Below, in pieces: positions 11,947-18,724 of a stretch of DNA of 64,000 bases. The notes beneath the pieces were generated by a model that was not told the origin of the DNA, searched no databases, and worked only from the letters and a program-made list of their open reading frames with translations. The DNA is from Pannonibacter carbonis. Its GTDB lineage: Bacteria; Pseudomonadota; Alphaproteobacteria; Rhizobiales; Stappiaceae. Both the position numbers and the translations under genes were made by a program. Position 1 is the first letter of the stretch. The number at the start of each line of letters is the position of its first letter. The stretch is from assembly GCF_003012935.1 (NCBI RefSeq), contig NZ_PUDR01000004.1:186001-250000 (forward strand), read 5' to 3'.

Positions 11947-12324
11947 CCCGCTGTCCCGGCCCCGGACGCAAGTCCTTGGCGGCCATGTCGAGACCTCTCC
12001 GCTCCCCTCCCCCTCGTGGGGAGGGGTAAGGGGTGGGGGGCACGGGAGGCTGTTTGATCGCAAGGCGTCGGAAGTCAGCCTGGTCAGAACCCTAGGAAAT
12101 TGGGTTTGCGTCCGCTCCCCCCACCCCCAAAACCCCTCCCCACGAGGGGGAGGGGAGCGGAGAGGCTGCGACAGGGTTTGACGTTCCAGGCACAGTCCTT
12201 CACATCAGACATATGCCAGACATCACCTGCGTTTTCCTTGCCTTTCTGTGGGGAGAGCAGCGCTTGCAAGATCTAGCCGGGACAACCGCTTGTGCGGGAA
12301 TTTCGCCCACTTCTGGTCTGATCT
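11947..12324. other. Convergent intergenic gap (378 bp) between grpE and the GH2 gene
   Basis: No coding frame here is convincing. It contains one long inverted repeat pair described separately and otherwise unremarkable sequence (12170-12320) with no recognisable RNA. Confidence 0.6.
11994..12165. repeat. REP-like doublet, family B (C/G-rich hairpins in inverted orientation)
   Basis: The left arm (11994-12040) and right arm (12115-12165) are inverted copies; the first 34 bases of the left arm (11994-12027) match the reverse complement of 12132-12165 exactly. Each arm also folds alone: CCCCTCCCC, a five-base loop CTCGT or ACGAG, then GGGGAGGGG. This architecture, two opposing hairpins about 75 bp apart in a convergent gap, is that of REP/BIME-type non-autonomous repeats. 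It could also act as a bidirectional transcription block. No transposase is nearby. Confidence 0.75.
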
Positions 12325-14844
12325 CTAGGCCGTAATCCGCACATCCTGCAGGCCATTGAGGGCGCTGATCACAGCGTCCAGCCGGGCATGGGCCGGCGTT
12401 CCTGCACGCGGATGCATCCGCACATGCCGGGTCTCGCCCGGCGCGATGTTCAGGCCGTTGAGCTCGGGCCGGAATTGCGGATCGCGGATCACGACACGCT
12501 GGGCAAAACGCCGTGCCGTCAGCGCCAGTTCGAAAGTCCCCTCGCCCAGATCCTTCGCCTCAGCGGTGAGATCCAGTTGCTGGCGCGGCAAAGCCAGGCC
12601 AAGCGGCAAGTGGCACGCCTCGCTGAGCGATGCCCCTGATGCATCGACGAGCCTTGCGCGCACGACATCATGCGACGGCGGCCCGAAGCGATAGGCGTAA
12701 CCGAGATCGAAGAAGCTGCCGATCAGCGCGAAGCCCGTGTGCCGCTGCTGCGAGCGCGGCGGCAGCACCACGTCCCGGGCGACAGAGATAACCGGCGTCA
12801 GGCCGTCGCGCCACGCTGTCAGTTCCAGGCGGGCGCCGAGCGGCGCTGCCGTTTCGTTGAGGAGATGGATGTCGAGGCCATTGGTGCCCTCATCCGTAAT
12901 CAGCACCTGCACCGGCGCCAGCACCTGCGACAGGATGCCGAGGGCGAGCTTCGGCTCGCCGTGGGCATCGATCAGCCCCCAGCCGGCACCAGGCAGGAGA
13001 TCGGACAGCGCCAGCACCATCGCGCCCCGGCAGGTCGAGCCGACGCGCCGCCACTCGGCAAAGGTGGCTGCCATCACCTCGCCCGTCACGGCCCGGGACA
13101 GCTCCAGATAGCGCTCCGGGTCGTGGCTACGCAGCCGCGCGGGATCGACGCCGTAGAGAGAGCCGAGATAGTGGTCGCGCACATCCTCGAAGTCCCAGCC
13201 TGCCCCCCGGTCGCGCGGAACGCGCGCCTTCCAGCGCGGATCGTGGCAGGCAATGCCGGGCAGCTCGCGCTCCAGCGTCACGGGTTCCGGCACGTTGGCA
13301 AAGGCAAGACATTCGCCGGCAAAGCAAACCCCGGCCCGGCGCGCATCGTCAAGCGGCCGCAGATAGGCGCCGACGCCGTAATAGTGACCGATGCCCACAT
13401 TGGGCAAGAACGGCAGGTCGCCCCCGGTCGGCGAGTTGCGCACATAGGGCACGGAGGGGGCCAGTGCCGCAACGAGATCAGGCAGAAGGCTTTCGATCAG
13501 CGGCTGTGCCCGGCGCTCAGCCGGCAGGCCCATCATCGCGGCCTGCTGCTCCATCTCACTACCGCCGCAGAAGACGGCAAGGCTCGGATGGAAGCAAAGC
13601 CGGCTGACGACCTCAGCGGCTTCACGGCGGACCGCTGCCTCGAAGACGGGGTCAGCGAGCGGATAGTCGAAGTTGGCGAACTGGAAGTCCTGCCAGACCA
13701 TCAGACCCAGCTCGTCGCAGAGCGCGAAGAAGGCCTCGCCCTCGTAGGTCGTGATGCCGGGAATGCGCAGGAGGTTCATGCCCGCGCCGGCCGCCGCCGC
13801 CAGCAGCGGTCGCAGCGCCTCGGGTGTCGAGGCGAGGCGCAGGATGTCAGCGCTGGTCCACACGGCCCCGCGTGCAAACACGGGCACGCCGTTGACGACG
13901 AGCCCGAAGCCCAGACCCTCAGCGCCGGCATCGACCTCGACCCGGCGGAAGCCGGTGCGGCCAAGCCGGTGGCGATGACCGGCAAGATGCAGCGTCACCT
14001 CATGCAGATGCGGCGTGCCGTGCGTCGCTGGCCACCAGGGCGCGACATCCGGGAGGTAAAGCGTCGCGGCGTACTGCCCGTCCGGGCCGGCCACGAGCGG
14101 CACGTGATGGCCGGCGCAGGAAAGCTCCGCGTCCACGAGCGGCGCGGCACTGGTGAGCGTCAGCGCCAGCACGCCGGTGCCATCCTCGCCCAAGGTGCTG
14201 GCAAGCTGCGTGATGGCGATATCGGGGGCTCGCCCGGTCTCGTCCGGAAGCGAGACGAACACGGGCCGGTAGGGGCCGACGGCCTCCACCTCGGGGCACC
14301 AGCCGGGCATGTGGCCGAGCAGCGTGGTGCGCAGGCCGCGCAAGCCAGCCTGATCAACAAGTTGGGTCCGCCAGCGGGCGCGGGGAAGCCTTGCGGCGAG
14401 CCGGTCCGTCAGCGCCCGGAAGGCCAGATGCAGGGTGTTCCGGGCGTCAGCCCCGACCTCGACCTCCAGCGCCGCGAACATGCTGTCTGAACGGGCCACG
14501 CGTTGGCCGTTCCAGAAGATGTCGGTGAGCGTGGCGAGGCCTTCAAAGCGCAGGCGGCAGCGGGCACCGGCCTTGGCAGTAACTTCTGTCCGATACCAGA
14601 AGTCCTTGTCCTGCAGGGGAAATGGCCCGGACGCCGAGAAGGCGCCGAGATCGGCAAAGGCTCCGGCGACGGTGCCCGGGACAGTGGCCGGCAGCCAGTC
14701 GAGATCGTCGGGCAGGTCGGCAGGGCTTGCAGCCTCGCCGGCATAGGTGCCGGCCAGTCTCCAGCCTGCGTCAAGCGGATGCAGCTGCTCTGCTAGGCGG
14801 CGCGGCGCAGGCAGGAGCGAGAAATCGGATACAGCGCTCGCCAT
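12325..14844 (-). CDS. Glycoside hydrolase family 2 protein, beta-mannosidase-like
   Basis: 839 aa. It has the GH2 order: N-terminal jelly-roll (WRLAGTY, TVPGTV, DFWYRTEV, FWNGQRV), immunoglobulin-like domain, then a TIM barrel from about residue 300 (NGVPVFARGAVWTSAD). The likely acid/base Glu is in FCGGSEMEQ (near residue 428), a variant of the usual GNNE motif; a candidate nucleophile Glu lies in FAGECLAF (near 508). No signal peptide is visible, suggesting a cytoplasmic enzyme. It starts 6 bases after the DUF1839 gene and is last in the carrier-protein operon, so its substrate may be a glycosylated product or precursor of that pathway. Exact sugar specificity is unknown. Confidence 0.8.
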   Translation of the reverse strand: MASAVSDFSLLPAPRRLAEQLHPLDAGWRLAGTYAGEAASPADLPDDLDWLPATVPGTVAGAFADLGAFSASGPFPLQDKDFWYRTEVTAKAGARCRLRFEGLATLTDIFWNGQRVARSDSMFAALEVEVGADARNTLHLAFRALTDRLAARLPRARWRTQLVDQAGLRGLRTTLLGHMPGWCPEVEAVGPYRPVFVSLPDETGRAPDIAITQLASTLGEDGTGVLALTLTSAAPLVDAELSCAGHHVPLVAGPDGQYAATLYLPDVAPWWPATHGTPHLHEVTLHLAGHRHRLGRTGFRRVEVDAGAEGLGFGLVVNGVPVFARGAVWTSADILRLASTPEALRPLLAAAAGAGMNLLRIPGITTYEGEAFFALCDELGLMVWQDFQFANFDYPLADPVFEAAVRREAAEVVSRLCFHPSLAVFCGGSEMEQQAAMMGLPAERRAQPLIESLLPDLVAALAPSVPYVRNSPTGGDLPFLPNVGIGHYYGVGAYLRPLDDARRAGVCFAGECLAFANVPEPVTLERELPGIACHDPRWKARVPRDRGAGWDFEDVRDHYLGSLYGVDPARLRSHDPERYLELSRAVTGEVMAATFAEWRRVGSTCRGAMVLALSDLLPGAGWGLIDAHGEPKLALGILSQVLAPVQVLITDEGTNGLDIHLLNETAAPLGARLELTAWRDGLTPVISVARDVVLPPRSQQRHTGFALIGSFFDLGYAYRFGPPSHDVVRARLVDASGASLSEACHLPLGLALPRQQLDLTAEAKDLGEGTFELALTARRFAQRVVIRDPQFRPELNGLNIAPGETRHVRMHPRAGTPAHARLDAVISALNGLQDVRITA

Positions 14845-14850
14845 GCCGTC

Positions 14851-15873
14851 TCACTCCGCCGCTGCGGCAGCGGCAGGCGGGTGCGACAGCAGCCCAGTCA
14901 GGCCACCATGCAGCCGGTCCCAGGCCTCGATCGCCGGCACCAGCGCGGGCGCGAGCTTGTCGAAGGATTTACGCATCACCGCCCGGGCGAGCTGGAACTG
15001 CACCACCTTGGCGGTTGCCGAGATAGTCCGTGCCTCGGGGGCAAGCCGTTCCAGCGCGGACGCATCCAGAGCCGTGTCCTGCCGCGCCAGCCAGTCGAGA
15101 TGGGCGGAGAACAGCTCGAAATTCGCGCCGAACTGGCGCAGGGTGTTGAAGGCGTAGAGATGGAAGAAGCCGAAGGGCCGCTCGGCAATCTCGGCCACCT
15201 GCGCCGGAAACACGGCGGCGAAAGTGGCAATCGGATTGGCCTCAGGCGCGCGCGCCAGATGCCGGCGCAGCAGGGCGACGGCGCGCCCGGCCAGCATGGC
15301 TGCATCGGGCAAGGCGGCCGGAAACTTCACAAATTCGGTATAGGGCAGGAACGGCAGCGCGCCCTCGGGCGCCGTGCGGTGGAAGATGCCGTCGAAATCT
15401 TCGCCTTCCAGCCGGTGCAGGCCGAGATTGTGGAAATAGTCCATCGTCCGGCCGTCGACATCGAGCCGGTTGATGGCGACGGTCGTCTTGCCGTGTTCCT
15501 TGCGGTAGGCGGTACCCTGGGTGTCGGGGAGATAGAAGCTGTCCATCTCGACAAGGCAGAGGTTGCCGCGCGCAATCTGTGCCGCGACATGCGCCTCGAC
15601 CCGGTCGAAGATGGCAAGCTCGGTCACGCGGATGCCGAACAGGGTCTCGAGGTCTTCCAGCGGCACCTTGAAGAAGGTGAACTGGTCGCCCTCGAAATCC
15701 TGGGTGATCGCATAGCCGAGCGCCGCCTCGGGCGGCTGCCCCAGCGCGGCCAGCACCTCGATCCAGATGTCGAGATAGCAGTTGGTCTCCGGCCAGTCGC
15801 GGCCGAGATCGTGCAGGCCGTGGCGCTGATACGCCAGCGGATCAAGCGCCGGAAACACCTTCTCGCGCGTCAT
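14851..15873 (-). CDS. DUF1839 family protein
   Basis: 340 aa, function unknown. The sequence fits DUF1839 (PF08893): NCYLDIWIEVLAALG near residue 20, a YAITQDFEGDQFTFFKVP stretch near 50, and NLCLVEMDSFYLPDTQGT near 95, resembling proteins annotated DUF1839 beside amino acid:carrier protein ligases. The Asp/His/Cys-containing stretches suggest an enzyme, plausibly an acyl or aminoacyl transferase acting on the charged carrier protein, but that is inference from context. I chose the ATG at 15873, one base after the ligase stop (gap 15874); the frame is open to 16002 but that part overlaps the ligase. No membrane segment or signal peptide is apparent. Confidence 0.75.
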   Translation of the reverse strand: MTREKVFPALDPLAYQRHGLHDLGRDWPETNCYLDIWIEVLAALGQPPEAALGYAITQDFEGDQFTFFKVPLEDLETLFGIRVTELAIFDRVEAHVAAQIARGNLCLVEMDSFYLPDTQGTAYRKEHGKTTVAINRLDVDGRTMDYFHNLGLHRLEGEDFDGIFHRTAPEGALPFLPYTEFVKFPAALPDAAMLAGRAVALLRRHLARAPEANPIATFAAVFPAQVAEIAERPFGFFHLYAFNTLRQFGANFELFSAHLDWLARQDTALDASALERLAPEARTISATAKVVQFQLARAVMRKSFDKLAPALVPAIEAWDRLHGGLTGLLSHPPAAAAAAE

Positions 15874-15874
15874 G

Positions 15875-16783
15875 TCAGCCCCAGAGCGCCTTGCGCACCG
15901 TTGACGGCCAGTCGGCCGTATCCAGACCATGGTGCGCGAACAGGGCCAGAGCGATCCGCTCCAGACCGAAGCCGACACAGGCCGTGTGCGCAACCGCACC
16001 ATCGGCGGTGGTCAGTCCCCAGGTCTTGCCGAAATGGTCCTGGTGATAGTTGAAGGACAGGCAGGCCGTCTTCTTAGCGGTCGAGGTCACCGGAATGAGC
16101 AGCTCGAACTTCAGGGCCTGGTCGCGCTGGTTGTTGGCCAGCATCTTGCCGGCGCGGCCGAAGAAGGGATCGTTGGCGACGTCGATCTCGACCGGCAGTT
16201 CGACGGCGGCGATCAGCTCCTGGCCGCGCTCCATCCACTGCTGGCGGAAGGCCATCACCTCTTCCGGCGTACCCATGCGGACATACTCGCGCATGCGGAA
16301 CAGCTGCATGCGGGCCGGGTCTTTCGACGGCTCATGCCGGAAGCAGTAGGACTGCAGGTCGAACAGCCCGCCGCCAGCCGGCAGCGGGCCGCGCTTGGCA
16401 ATGGTCGGATAGAGCGGATAGCAGGCCGCCGGCGTCAGCACGATGTCCGTCGCCTTCTGGTCCTTGGTCCAGTCATTGCCCTCGGCCATGCACTGCAGCA
16501 GGTTCACGTGGTCCAGCTCGCAGCCGCAGAAGGAATGCACGGTTCCGGCAAGCTGCGGGAAGCTCTTCATGTAGCCCGAGCCCTCGAAATGGCTGCGGTT
16601 CATGCCCGGGGGAAAGCGGATGACCTCGGACGGGGAGCTGCTGCCGAAGGCCGAGATCAGCCCCTCGAAGCGCTGGATCACGTCCTCGAAGGCGCCCGAA
16701 CGGCCGTAGAGGCCATCGACGCCGGTGTCGATCAGAAGACCTGCATCAAACAGCCGGTCGAGAAGGGAGGTCTGCATGTCCAT
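15875..16783 (-). CDS. Amino acid--[carrier protein] ligase (truncated seryl-tRNA synthetase homologue)
   Basis: 302 aa, only the class II catalytic core; the tRNA-binding N-terminal coiled coil of SerRS is absent. Class II motif 2 is [20 protein letters not shown] (147-166) and motif 3 is [12 protein letters not shown] (271-282). Three putative zinc ligands, Cys121 (AACYP), Glu166 (MREYV) and Cys269 (TACVGFG), have the same spacing as Cys131/Glu176/Cys279 that I recall for the Bradyrhizobium ligase. Those characterised homologues (Bradyrhizobium, Agrobacterium) activate Gly or Ala with ATP and load it on the phosphopantetheine of a small carrier protein instead of tRNA. The matching carrier protein gene is two genes upstream in the same operon. 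The amino acid specificity here cannot be read from sequence. Confidence 0.9.
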
Positions 16784-16786
16784 GTC

Positions 16787-17968
16787 TCACCCCAACAGGC
16801 TGGTGTCCTGCTTGTTCACAAGCAGCATCGTGGAAGTGTTGCCGAGAATGCGGTCATTGGAGATCATCAGTTGCGCCGAATGTGCATCACGCAGGTGCCG
16901 GCCAATGCTGTAGGGCGTGCCGTTTTTGTAGCCCATGATCCCTGTGATCAGCAGGCAATGGTTGATGATCTCGAGGATCGTCTGCGACGAGGCGATCTTC
17001 ACGTTGTTCATGGCTACCGCAAAGCCCATCGACGACAGCTTCGTCTCGTCCTTCTGGGCGGCATCATACTGCTGCAGGGCGGCCAGGATGTTGGACTTGA
17101 CCAGTTGCAGCAAGTTGGACGCTTCCGCCAGACGCAGCGCGCCCGGAGGCACGCTGCCCGGCGACTTGCGCGCCGCTGCGCGGACGAAGGCCTGGGCACG
17201 GGCAAAGGCGTCCGAGGCGATGCCGAACCAGACGCCGCTCCACAGGATGTGCGAATTGGCCAGCATCGACTGGGCCGCGATCTCGGCGAAGGGCTTGGGC
17301 AGGATCTGCTCCGCCGGTGCCTCGCCCTTGAAGATGAAGCCGTCCGAGCGGGTTCCGCGCATGCCGAGCGTGTCCCAGTGATGGGTCTTCTCGAGCGTAT
17401 ACTGACCTTTCTCGAACACGGTCATCACCTGGTCCGAGGGGGCGCTGTCGGCGCGGGCCCGGGATGTGACGAGGATAGCATCCGCCGCCTCGGCATAGGA
17501 AATGACCGTCGCATCCTTGGTCAGGCGGCAGGTGTCGCCATCGACCTCGATGGCGCAGATGGAATTGCGCAGATTGCCGCCGATGCCGCCCTCCGTGGTT
17601 GCCGAGGCAAGCAGCAGCTGGTCTGCCGCGATGCGGCGCATGTAGGCTTCGTGCCAGGGCGCGCCCTCGCCGTGCGACACCAGGCTCGACGCCTTGATCT
17701 GATGCATGGCGAAGACCATGCCGGAGGCAGCACAGGCCTGACCGAGAATGCAGCAGACTTCAGCAATCTCTGCCGTGGTCGCGCTTTCTCCGCCAAGATA
17801 GTCCGGAATCTGGATACCAAGCAGGCGCTCGGCCTTCATGGCGTCGACGGCTTCATTTGGGAACCGTCCGCCAGCATCAACATCATCCGCGTTGGCCGCG
17901 GCCACCGCCGCTGCCCTGCGGGCGCGCTCGGTCAGGCTGAGCGCCTTCGCCTTGGCCAGCTCGTTCAT
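16787..17968 (-). CDS. Acyl-CoA dehydrogenase-fold flavoprotein of the aminoacyl-carrier-protein operon
   Basis: 393 aa from the ATG at 17968; a GTG at 17971 is an alternative start. The length and order match the acyl-CoA dehydrogenase fold: N-terminal helices, middle beta domain (LLASATTEGGIGGNLRNS, about 125-142; HHWDTLGMRGTRSDG, near 212-226) and C-terminal helical domain. At the C-terminus, where classical members have RDA...YEGT with the catalytic Glu, this protein reads LRDAHSAQLMISNDRIL with no Glu in register. It may therefore be a monooxygenase-type or otherwise altered member acting on the aminoacyl thioester. The start overlaps the carrier-protein stop (TGATG) and the ligase begins 3 bases after its stop. 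Confidence 0.85.
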   Translation of the reverse strand: MNELAKAKALSLTERARRAAAVAAANADDVDAGGRFPNEAVDAMKAERLLGIQIPDYLGGESATTAEIAEVCCILGQACAASGMVFAMHQIKASSLVSHGEGAPWHEAYMRRIAADQLLLASATTEGGIGGNLRNSICAIEVDGDTCRLTKDATVISYAEAADAILVTSRARADSAPSDQVMTVFEKGQYTLEKTHHWDTLGMRGTRSDGFIFKGEAPAEQILPKPFAEIAAQSMLANSHILWSGVWFGIASDAFARAQAFVRAAARKSPGSVPPGALRLAEASNLLQLVKSNILAALQQYDAAQKDETKLSSMGFAVAMNNVKIASSQTILEIINHCLLITGIMGYKNGTPYSIGRHLRDAHSAQLMISNDRILGNTSTMLLVNKQDTSLLG

Positions 17969-18216
17969 CACGCCACCGCTTCTTCAGTCAAGGACGCCAG
18001 CGCATCCCGGATCGCGGCAATCGACGCGAAGGACTTGCGATTGAGCAGGGTCTCGGGGAATTCGACGTCGAACGCGTCTTCGAGCGCCAACATCAGCTGG
18101 ACGGAGGCAAATGACGACAGGCCAGCTTCGTACAGGTCAGTAGTGTCTGCCAGAGTCTCGACGGAAACCGGCAAGGCGCCATGCTTTGCCAGCAATTCGC
18201 GGATCTTGGTGGTCAT
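17968..18216 (-). CDS. Acyl carrier protein-like (aminoacyl) carrier protein
   Basis: 82 aa. It has the four-helix carrier protein pattern: an acidic loop DLYEAGLSSFASVQLMLALE with Ser35 at the phosphopantetheine position. The usual DSL is SSF here, which fits specialised aminoacyl carrier proteins better than fatty-acid AcpP. As the first gene of the operon it is the likely substrate of the amino acid ligase two genes downstream; a 4'-phosphopantetheinyl transferase would have to be supplied from elsewhere. The AT-rich stretch upstream probably holds the operon promoter. Confidence 0.85.
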   Translation of the reverse strand: MTTKIRELLAKHGALPVSVETLADTTDLYEAGLSSFASVQLMLALEDAFDVEFPETLLNRKSFASIAAIRDALASLTEEAVA

Positions 18217-18724
18217 GTTGCGTAATCCCTCAACAAACAGGTAGGCCGCGCCTGCAGCCCTGCTGGAAATGTCATGTCCATTGCATTTCTAGCGCATGTT
18301 AAATAACCCGCGCTTAAGATGCATGGTAAATATCACAATAAAGTTAAATCTGGTCGACGTATATTTACGAATTGTTAATGAATTAATTCCTTCTGCGCCT
18401 CATTGTTTCTGTCTATTTCCATGTATTATCTAAAATAACCATACGGAATATTAAGTTACTCTGCTGTTGCCATGATCCATACGCCGACCGATCAAAGCCA
18501 GCCAACCTTCAGGACAGTAAAAAGAAAGACCAAGTGCTTTGGTCATAGCGAAAAGGCTTAGCAGCGCGGCAAGAAACGACTGCCAGACCATCTGATCATC
18601 TGACCATGCCCAGACGCTGGCTTCGAGCCTGGGCGCTGGATAGCAAAAGCCGTCGGCTGGCGGAAGGTCAAACGAAAACCCCGCCCAAAGGGCGGGGCTG
18701 AATGGCTGACGCTCTGGAAGAGGA
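18217..18724. other. 508-bp gap upstream of the carrier-protein operon
   Basis: Bases about 18285-18470 are strikingly AT-rich for this genome, with many TTAAT and AATT runs and the palindrome GAATTAATTC at 18380-18389; this is the expected place for the promoter and control region of the leftward carrier-protein operon. Bases 18470-18670 contain no supported gene. A frame on the minus strand runs through it (18451-18810) but overlaps ptsN and looks like chance. The ptsN terminator is at 18675-18697. Confidence 0.55.
18675..18697 (-). terminator. Intrinsic terminator of the hpf-ptsN transcript
   Basis: Read on the minus strand: CCCCGCCC, loop TTT, GGGCGGGG, then TTTTC. It begins 27 bases after the ptsN stop. 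Confidence 0.85.

Follow-up and report, generated by a model that had tools for sequence, protein, structure and literature searches.

In the alphaproteobacterium Pannonibacter carbonis, whose genome is assembled as 4.78 Mb in 33 contigs, a 64,000-nucleotide stretch (contig position C28:186001-250000; hereafter the window) contains a cassette of five genes, all on the minus strand. In order, they encode a small carrier protein (17968..18216), a flavoprotein with an acyl-CoA dehydrogenase fold (16787..17968), an amino acid--[carrier protein] ligase (aa:CP ligase; 15875..16783), a DUF1839 protein (14851..15873), and a beta-mannosidase-type protein of glycoside hydrolase family 2 (GH2; 12325..14844). 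Successive genes are spaced by -1, 3, 1, and 6 bases, with the stop codon of the carrier-protein gene overlapped by 1 base by the flavoprotein ATG at 17968, and the cassette is likely transcribed as a single mRNA. Open reading frames (ORFs) and family models agree on this layout, which confirms what an earlier note on this DNA had observed. The same note had proposed a five-gene pathway, which is partly supported here; it had missed a sixth gene encoding a tandem hydrolase, a link with exopolysaccharide loci, the existence of two ligase architectures, and a prediction published in 2010. The reading developed below is that the cassette makes a carrier-bound aminoacyl group, which the DUF1839 protein joins to a sugar, likely an aminosugar of an exopolysaccharide repeat; we consider the case for it evenly balanced.

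The ligase scored 522.3 bits against the model NF005479 (cut-off 357), and its matches in the PDB include 4h2w (4.5e-98) and 3mey (6.6e-93). With a length of 302 residues and a SerRS-like core, it lacks a tRNA-binding domain; its residues 113-296 align to residues 311-505 of a 527-residue type-2 seryl-tRNA synthetase (SerRS). It shares the NF005479 match above cut-off with the aa:CP ligases Bll0957 of Bradyrhizobium and Atu2573 of Agrobacterium, and its residues 8-300 align with Bll0957. The zinc ligands of the latter, Cys131, Glu176, and Cys279, would correspond by alignment to C121, E166, and C269 of the window ligase, each of which is kept in 93% or more of the 101 rows. The structure 4h2w differs from 3mey (Bll0957) in a short stretch, where the window ligase is identical to 4h2w; this stretch is presumably an engineered carrier-recognition helix from the Agrobacterium ligase. 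The biochemistry of aa:CP ligases was reportedly described in a 2010 study in PNAS, and by homology the amino acid loaded in the present case would be glycine or alanine. As for Atu2573, it is named as a hub gene in a transcriptome study.

The carrier protein (82 residues) reached 112 bits against NF005480 (cut-off 72) and matched the PP-binding domain. Its residue S35, located in the motif GLSSFASV, is at least 93% conserved across 86 rows and is likely the serine that bears the phosphopantetheine. Homology supports the tRNA-independent aminoacyl-carrier-protein pathway that had been proposed, in which the ligase would activate a small amino acid (Gly or Ala) and load it onto the phosphopantetheine of the carrier. 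The first proposal made for the aa:CP ligases was different: according to a note in PMC2922099, it was that the charged carrier serves a non-ribosomal peptide synthetase (NRPS)-type pathway, and would then supply a peptide or antibiotic. No condensation or NRPS genes were recognised among the five genes or their annotated neighbours, and the gene set includes a GH2 enzyme, which makes this very unlikely.

The flavoprotein, which matches the Pfam families Acyl-CoA_dh_N and Acyl-CoA_dh_1, probably oxidises the carrier-bound amino acid. Its best sequence match in the PDB was the nitrososynthase DnmZ (7e-15), then KijD3, with acyl-CoA dehydrogenases (ACADs) close behind. In a Foldseek search with its structural model (mean pLDDT 77, with low values towards the C-terminus), ACADs were mixed with KijD3, DnmZ, and DszC, and butyryl-CoA dehydrogenase ranked first. 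The catalytic glutamate of ACADs lies at either of two known sites. None was seen at the presumed equivalent columns of the flavoprotein, but most alignments stop just before the short-chain-type site, and the model is of low confidence C-terminally. An attempt to derive a mechanism from the predicted structure was dropped in view of this pLDDT, the low C-terminus, and structural neighbours of both kinds. The chemistry may be of either a dehydrogenase-like or a nitrososynthase/monooxygenase-like type. If the substrate is glycine, alpha-beta desaturation is impossible, which would leave C-N oxidation or N-oxygenation; with alanine, dehydroalanine is a possible product.

The DUF1839 protein matched PF08893 with 425 bits, as scored on its longer ORF. 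Its predicted structure, built from 35 sequences, has a mean pLDDT of 90.5 and a pTM of 0.90, and combines a papain-like fold with a helical part; C32 stands at the start of the first long helix of the model. In a Foldseek comparison with the PDB, the chains at ranks 1-19 all came from the AziU2-U3 complex, CtaG, or CcbD, with E values between 1.9e-7 and 1.2e-3, and beyond these ranks there was no match under E 0.01. The identity of AziU3 is taken from the title of its PDB entry alone, and BtrH was absent from these Foldseek matches, no test having been aimed at it. Residues C32, T131, and H148 are invariant across the 35 rows. According to a 2023 survey, DUF1839 belongs to the papain-like superfamily and has a C(T/S)H triad, and its genomic context led the survey to guess at a role in glycan processing at the cell wall (PMC10318531); the three invariant residues fit this triad and would correspond to it. 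CcbD links an aminosugar to an amino acid borne by a carrier, forming the amide by an acyl-cysteine route (PMC12945683), and CtaG is a proposed peptidyl transferase that uses a carrier as donor (PMC6772006). The likeness of the window protein to CcbD/LmbD, CtaG, and AziU3 lies in the predicted fold, in the cysteine that opens the first helix, and in the presence of a carrier protein in the operon. This match of a predicted structure suggests a specific reaction, as well as which cysteine would be catalytic, and it supports the earlier suggestion that DUF1839 passes the aminoacyl group on. By analogy with CcbD in celesticetin synthesis, C32 would accept the acyl group and then transfer it to a sugar amine.

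Conservation of the gene set was evaluated in 385 genomes of the class (sample A) and 397 genomes of the order (sample B). In the former, the ligase exceeded its cut-off in 10 genomes and DUF1839 was found in 5, in each case directly beside the ligase; in the latter, there were 88 genomes with the ligase over cut-off and 65 with DUF1839, all of them within the 88. When the neighbourhoods of 100 ligase loci from both samples were compared by tblastn, together with that of the window, 66 of the 101 loci (window included) had the carrier, flavoprotein, ligase, DUF1839, and GH2 genes in the same order and orientation. Two had the first four genes only (L057, at a contig edge, and L131, from genome G186). 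The others comprised 14 loci in which flavoprotein and ligase are accompanied by a divergent carrier gene, 10 with flavoprotein and ligase, 2 with carrier and ligase, and 7 with a distant ligase relative only. An additional set was obtained by a search with DUF1839, and consists of the best 80 of at least 562 matches, hence of close relatives, from species partly shared with the sample genomes. In these 80 loci and 8 plasmid regions, all five genes were matched in order in 86 of 88 cases, a count that includes one plasmid (L237) with a GH2 matched in part only; the remaining two (L202, L220) were cut by contig ends. More broadly, 11 of 12 plasmid regions had at least partial matches for all five genes in order, and the twelfth had DUF1839 only. 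Among the plasmid regions with the cassette are those of Azospirillum and of betaproteobacteria (Mycetohabitans, Caballeronia, and Burkholderia). The recurrence of this order goes beyond chance, and the five genes belong together in a gene set that is real and meaningful.

The ligases themselves fall into two groups. In a tree of 94 rows, from which 7 distant rows were excluded, 24 Bradyrhizobium-type ligases are separated from 70 cassette-type ligases with a support of 100/100 and a branch of 1.1, and the distribution of the 68 DUF1839-adjacent rows requires a single label change (support 69/77). Two rows without adjacent DUF1839 (L101, L134) fall on the cassette side with long branches, a placement of the kind that the program flags as unsure. 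The solved Bll0957, the best-studied of these ligases, is near-identical to a member of the Bradyrhizobium-type group (L077). It differs from the window ligase in belonging to this other clade, whose 24 loci are devoid of DUF1839, GH2, and the tandem hydrolase described below; the downstream fate of the amino acid loaded by Bll0957 need therefore not match that in the cassette. The Bradyrhizobium-type loci (L066-L099, L135) have ligase and flavoprotein genes, often with a divergent carrier gene, and no DUF1839. In 16 of them, a nearby gene encodes a protein with weak similarity to GNAT (cluster C7, slightly under the Pfam cut-off), a possible transfer enzyme for these loci. Loci L101 and L134 contain only carrier and ligase genes, without flavoprotein, DUF1839, or GH2, next to a hydrolase-like neighbour, and are possibly a reduced form.

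The GH2 protein (839 residues) matched PF22666 with 48.9 bits and the beta-mannosidase 5n6u with 3.8e-39. Its catalytic glutamates are kept, E430 in 66/66 rows and E511 in 65/66 (one gap), and the enzyme is probably active, in line with the role as a sugar enzyme that had been assigned to it. Its acid/base motif is CGGSE, versus CGNNE in the beta-mannosidase 6bye, and the Asn-Glu pair is thus replaced: S429 is present in 65 of 66 rows, and in 80 of 81 in the DUF1839-search set, where the remaining row is a gap. In this clan of glycoside hydrolases, the asparagine that precedes the acid/base contacts the 2-OH of the sugar, and a serine in its place would fit a sugar with a nitrogen at C2. It could be argued that GH2 and DUF1839 are co-transcribed through history alone and are functionally apart from the ligase, since GH2 is matched in part only in 3 of the 12 plasmid regions (L237, L263, L265) and is separate in G186, where it is absent from the cassette. 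In that genome, however, GH2 is relocated and not lost, lying side by side with the tandem hydrolase on another contig; in addition, the gene order is kept in alpha- and betaproteobacteria, as are the catalytic residues of GH2, and we judge the historical explanation highly improbable.

Clustering of the neighbouring genes identified a sixth partner, a tandem alpha/beta hydrolase of about 600 residues, in 43 of the 101 loci, and in 51 of the 88 DUF1839-search or plasmid loci. The P. carbonis genome has a single copy, located outside the window, 71 kb from DUF1839. This protein matches TIGR03101 best in its first half and TIGR03100 best in its second half, both below the curated cut-offs. It thus resembles the XrtA-associated hydrolases 1 and 2 (TIGR03100, TIGR03101) in matching both models with opposite halves, and differs from them in being fused and in scoring below cut-off. 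Among the 397 genomes of the order, the hydrolase was present in 65, a set identical to the 65 genomes with DUF1839. The probability of such identity by chance is 10^-75.6 when relatedness is ignored, a figure that for this reason makes the coincidence look more exceptional than it is. No more than 15 kb separates the hydrolase gene from that of DUF1839 in 49 of the 65 genomes, which is not so in the other 16. In a further test of 8 genomes at 1e-10, the hydrolase was matched in all three DUF1839 genomes from outside the order (G186, G280, G358), and in none of three Bradyrhizobium-type genomes.

In the second half of the tandem hydrolase, a GxCxG motif (G406-x-C408-S-G410) contains a cysteine conserved in 115/115 aligned copies, together with D535 (112/113) and H568 (113/113), some species being included twice; the nucleophile of this half would then be a cysteine. 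These three residues, along with the weak similarity of the carrier protein to DltC, lend some support to a Dlt-like scheme, in which the amino acid is linked as an ester to a sugar hydroxyl and the tandem hydrolase acts as a second acyltransferase through the GxCxG cysteine. However, the DltC models were matched below cut-off (27.7 versus 68 and 22.6 versus 52.35 bits), DltA- and DltB-type genes are absent among the five, to which this search was confined, and amide-forming enzymes are among the nearest folds of DUF1839. Such esterification is accordingly held to be quite unlikely. The transfer to a sugar amine favoured here would nevertheless share with Dlt D-alanylation the use of a carrier protein and a ligase to bring an amino acid to an envelope polymer; the cassette differs in that its ligase is a relative of tRNA synthetases.

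A likely link with polysaccharides emerges from the surroundings of the hydrolase. In P. carbonis, its locus encodes a WecG/TagA-type transferase, Wzz, an unassigned 446-residue protein, a GT4 glycosyltransferase, a polysaccharide deacetylase, a second GT4, a Wzx-type flippase, a GH5 protein, and the hydrolase. In two loci from the same genus (L105, L111), the cassette lies directly beside genes for the hydrolase, GH5, flippase, and GT4. Twenty hydrolase loci were compared. Five were linked or second copies, and the other 15 represent 13 of the 16 genomes that lack a 15-kb linkage between hydrolase and DUF1839. A WecG-type gene was present in 12 and Wzz in 8 of the 15 unlinked loci, and WecG in 2 of the other five. 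Near the cassette itself, WecG was found in 11 of 67 sample loci and in 1 of 80 DUF1839-search loci; among the 24 Bradyrhizobium-type ligase loci, neither the hydrolase nor WecG was found. Some loci have other polysaccharide genes as neighbours, namely additional GT4s and an initiating sugar transferase (cluster C20), and in Shinella (L231) genes for a GT4, an O-antigen ligase, and GumC are situated 5-12 kb upstream of the carrier gene. A simple hydropathy count revealed no signal-peptide-like hydrophobic stretch in any of the six proteins, which should therefore act in the cytoplasm, before export. The acceptor would most likely be an aminosugar in the repeat unit of a Wzx-dependent exopolysaccharide, at the stage where this unit is lipid-linked in the cytoplasm. 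GH2 and the hydrolase, the latter not linked to the cassette in P. carbonis, may trim, proofread, or modify the repeat unit prior to export.

Alternatively, the product could be a free secreted small molecule, either an aminoacyl-aminosugar, following a lincosamide-like logic, or a glycosylated amino acid, with GH2 releasing or trimming it. CcbD, AziU3, and CtaG all belong to small-molecule pathways, some plasmid cassettes have no annotated polysaccharide genes alongside, and transporter genes adjoin some cassettes. Against this stand the co-distribution of the cassette with a tandem hydrolase that resembles XrtA-associated hydrolases and is itself found in polysaccharide loci, and the absence of an exporter or a glycosyltransferase from the five-gene cassette. 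We consider a free small molecule rather unlikely.

Several observations weigh against the transfer of an aminoacyl group to an exopolysaccharide aminosugar by DUF1839. The Foldseek TM-scores for the AziU3, CtaG, and CcbD chains are just 0.5-0.6, and DUF1839 shows no detectable sequence similarity to these proteins, neither in PDB sequence searches (E up to 1) nor in profile searches (E up to 10). Moreover, the triad order reported for DUF1839 is Cys-Thr/Ser-His (PMC10318531), versus Cys-His-Glu in CcbD. On a plasmid of Rhizobium sp. NZLR1 (L262), DUF1839 occurs alone, the other five query proteins being unmatched within 9 kb, and is probably a relic. With regard to the sixth gene, the cut-off that defined its presence (E 1e-30) was of our own choosing, and two genomes with carrier and ligase and no DUF1839 (G131, G316) gave partial hydrolase matches, contrary to a strict one-to-one rule. 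As for the polysaccharide link, homologues of any of the eight other genes of the P. carbonis hydrolase locus were present within about 9-10 kb of the cassette in just 27 of 67 sample loci and 43 of 80 DUF1839-search loci, as compared with 5 of the 24 loci of Bradyrhizobium type (Wzz in 5, GT4 also or instead in 1). Finally, for the cassettes on plasmids from Caballeronia (L236), Phyllobacterium (L238), and Azospirillum (L233), the stretch read has no annotated glycosyltransferase or flippase.

The core idea was already proposed in 2010. In a note added in proof, Aravind's group predicted that a neighbourhood of StRS, ACP, Atu2574, and glycosidase genes transfers an amino acid to the amino group of a cell-surface sugar, with an uncharacterised ORF forming the amide and a redox enzyme modifying the aminoacyl group (PMC2922099). 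The gene kinds are the same and the reaction is nearly identical to the one favoured here, with Atu2574 presumably being DUF1839, as judged from the shared gene order. In the text of that note, to which the comparison is limited, there is no structural support, sixth gene, or presence/absence census. Beyond the papers cited here, nothing on this system was found in the open-access literature, and print elsewhere is possible; the biological role of the aa:CP ligases was still called unknown in a 2022 review (PMC9437257). To this the present analysis adds a predicted fold that supports the transfer step, a sixth gene whose distribution over 397 genomes is identical to that of DUF1839 and which points to a partner that had been missing, the split into two architectures, the variant active site of GH2, and, elsewhere in the P. 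carbonis genome, a locus that is a plausible target. As a tentative extension, it is possible that the six genes form a dedicated system in which a relative of tRNA synthetases drives the amide aminoacylation of an exopolysaccharide aminosugar through chemistry like that of lincosamide synthetase, the amino acid perhaps being N-oxidised. If true, this would provide the long-orphan aa:CP ligases with a first function, for a cassette that is also found in the nif clusters of some rhizobial plasmids.

Three of the 12 plasmid regions (L232, R. gallicum M101; L237, R. acidisoli FH23; L265, Rhizobium sp. C104) have nif genes, as far as nifX, and a gene annotated as "exopolysaccharide production repressor" ahead of the cassette; fdxB is annotated in two of them, and the GH2 match is partial in two. 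A simple scan ahead of the cassettes of L232, L237, and L238 found no NifA or sigma-54 sites. In the upstream stretches of seven DUF1839-search loci, the only matches were a NifA-like one (L151) and a weak sigma-54-like one (L157), both of which could arise by chance. An alignment of six upstream stretches showed little that is shared beyond the nearest relative. In other loci (L102-L104, L110, L114, L115, L120, L264), genes of the aminoacyl-tRNA-synthetase and radical SAM families lie upstream of the cassette, annotated in L264 as epmA and lysine-2,3-aminomutase-like.

The genes that precede the cassette in the window are rpoN, one of S30AE/hpf type, and one for a PTS EIIA (ptsN-type). The proximity of rpoN prompted a search for a sigma-54 promoter 5' of the cassette, and the window contained 12 matches, versus 13.45 expected, that is, no excess. 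Between the ptsN-type and carrier genes, a stem on the minus strand (18677..18699; 10 pairs, 8 of them G-C, with a T-rich tail) is suggestive, and only that, of a terminator before the cassette, as the scan found 4 terminator-like sites against a mean of 4.0 in shuffled sequences, a number not above chance. Downstream of GH2, at window positions 12000-12320, the raw sequence contains C/G-rich repeated stretches such as 'cccctcgtggggagg'. Among the best 80 of at least 562 matches of the DUF1839 search, the closest relative was Pannonibacter sp. SL95 (L151), with 97% identity. In this strain, a GT4 glycosyltransferase gene (L151:6316-7398) lies between the ptsN-type and carrier genes, and is absent from the window (18390-18720, compared with L151 6163-7482). 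Its GH2 is represented by two overlapping ORFs (L151:11024-13545), through either decay or a sequencing error.

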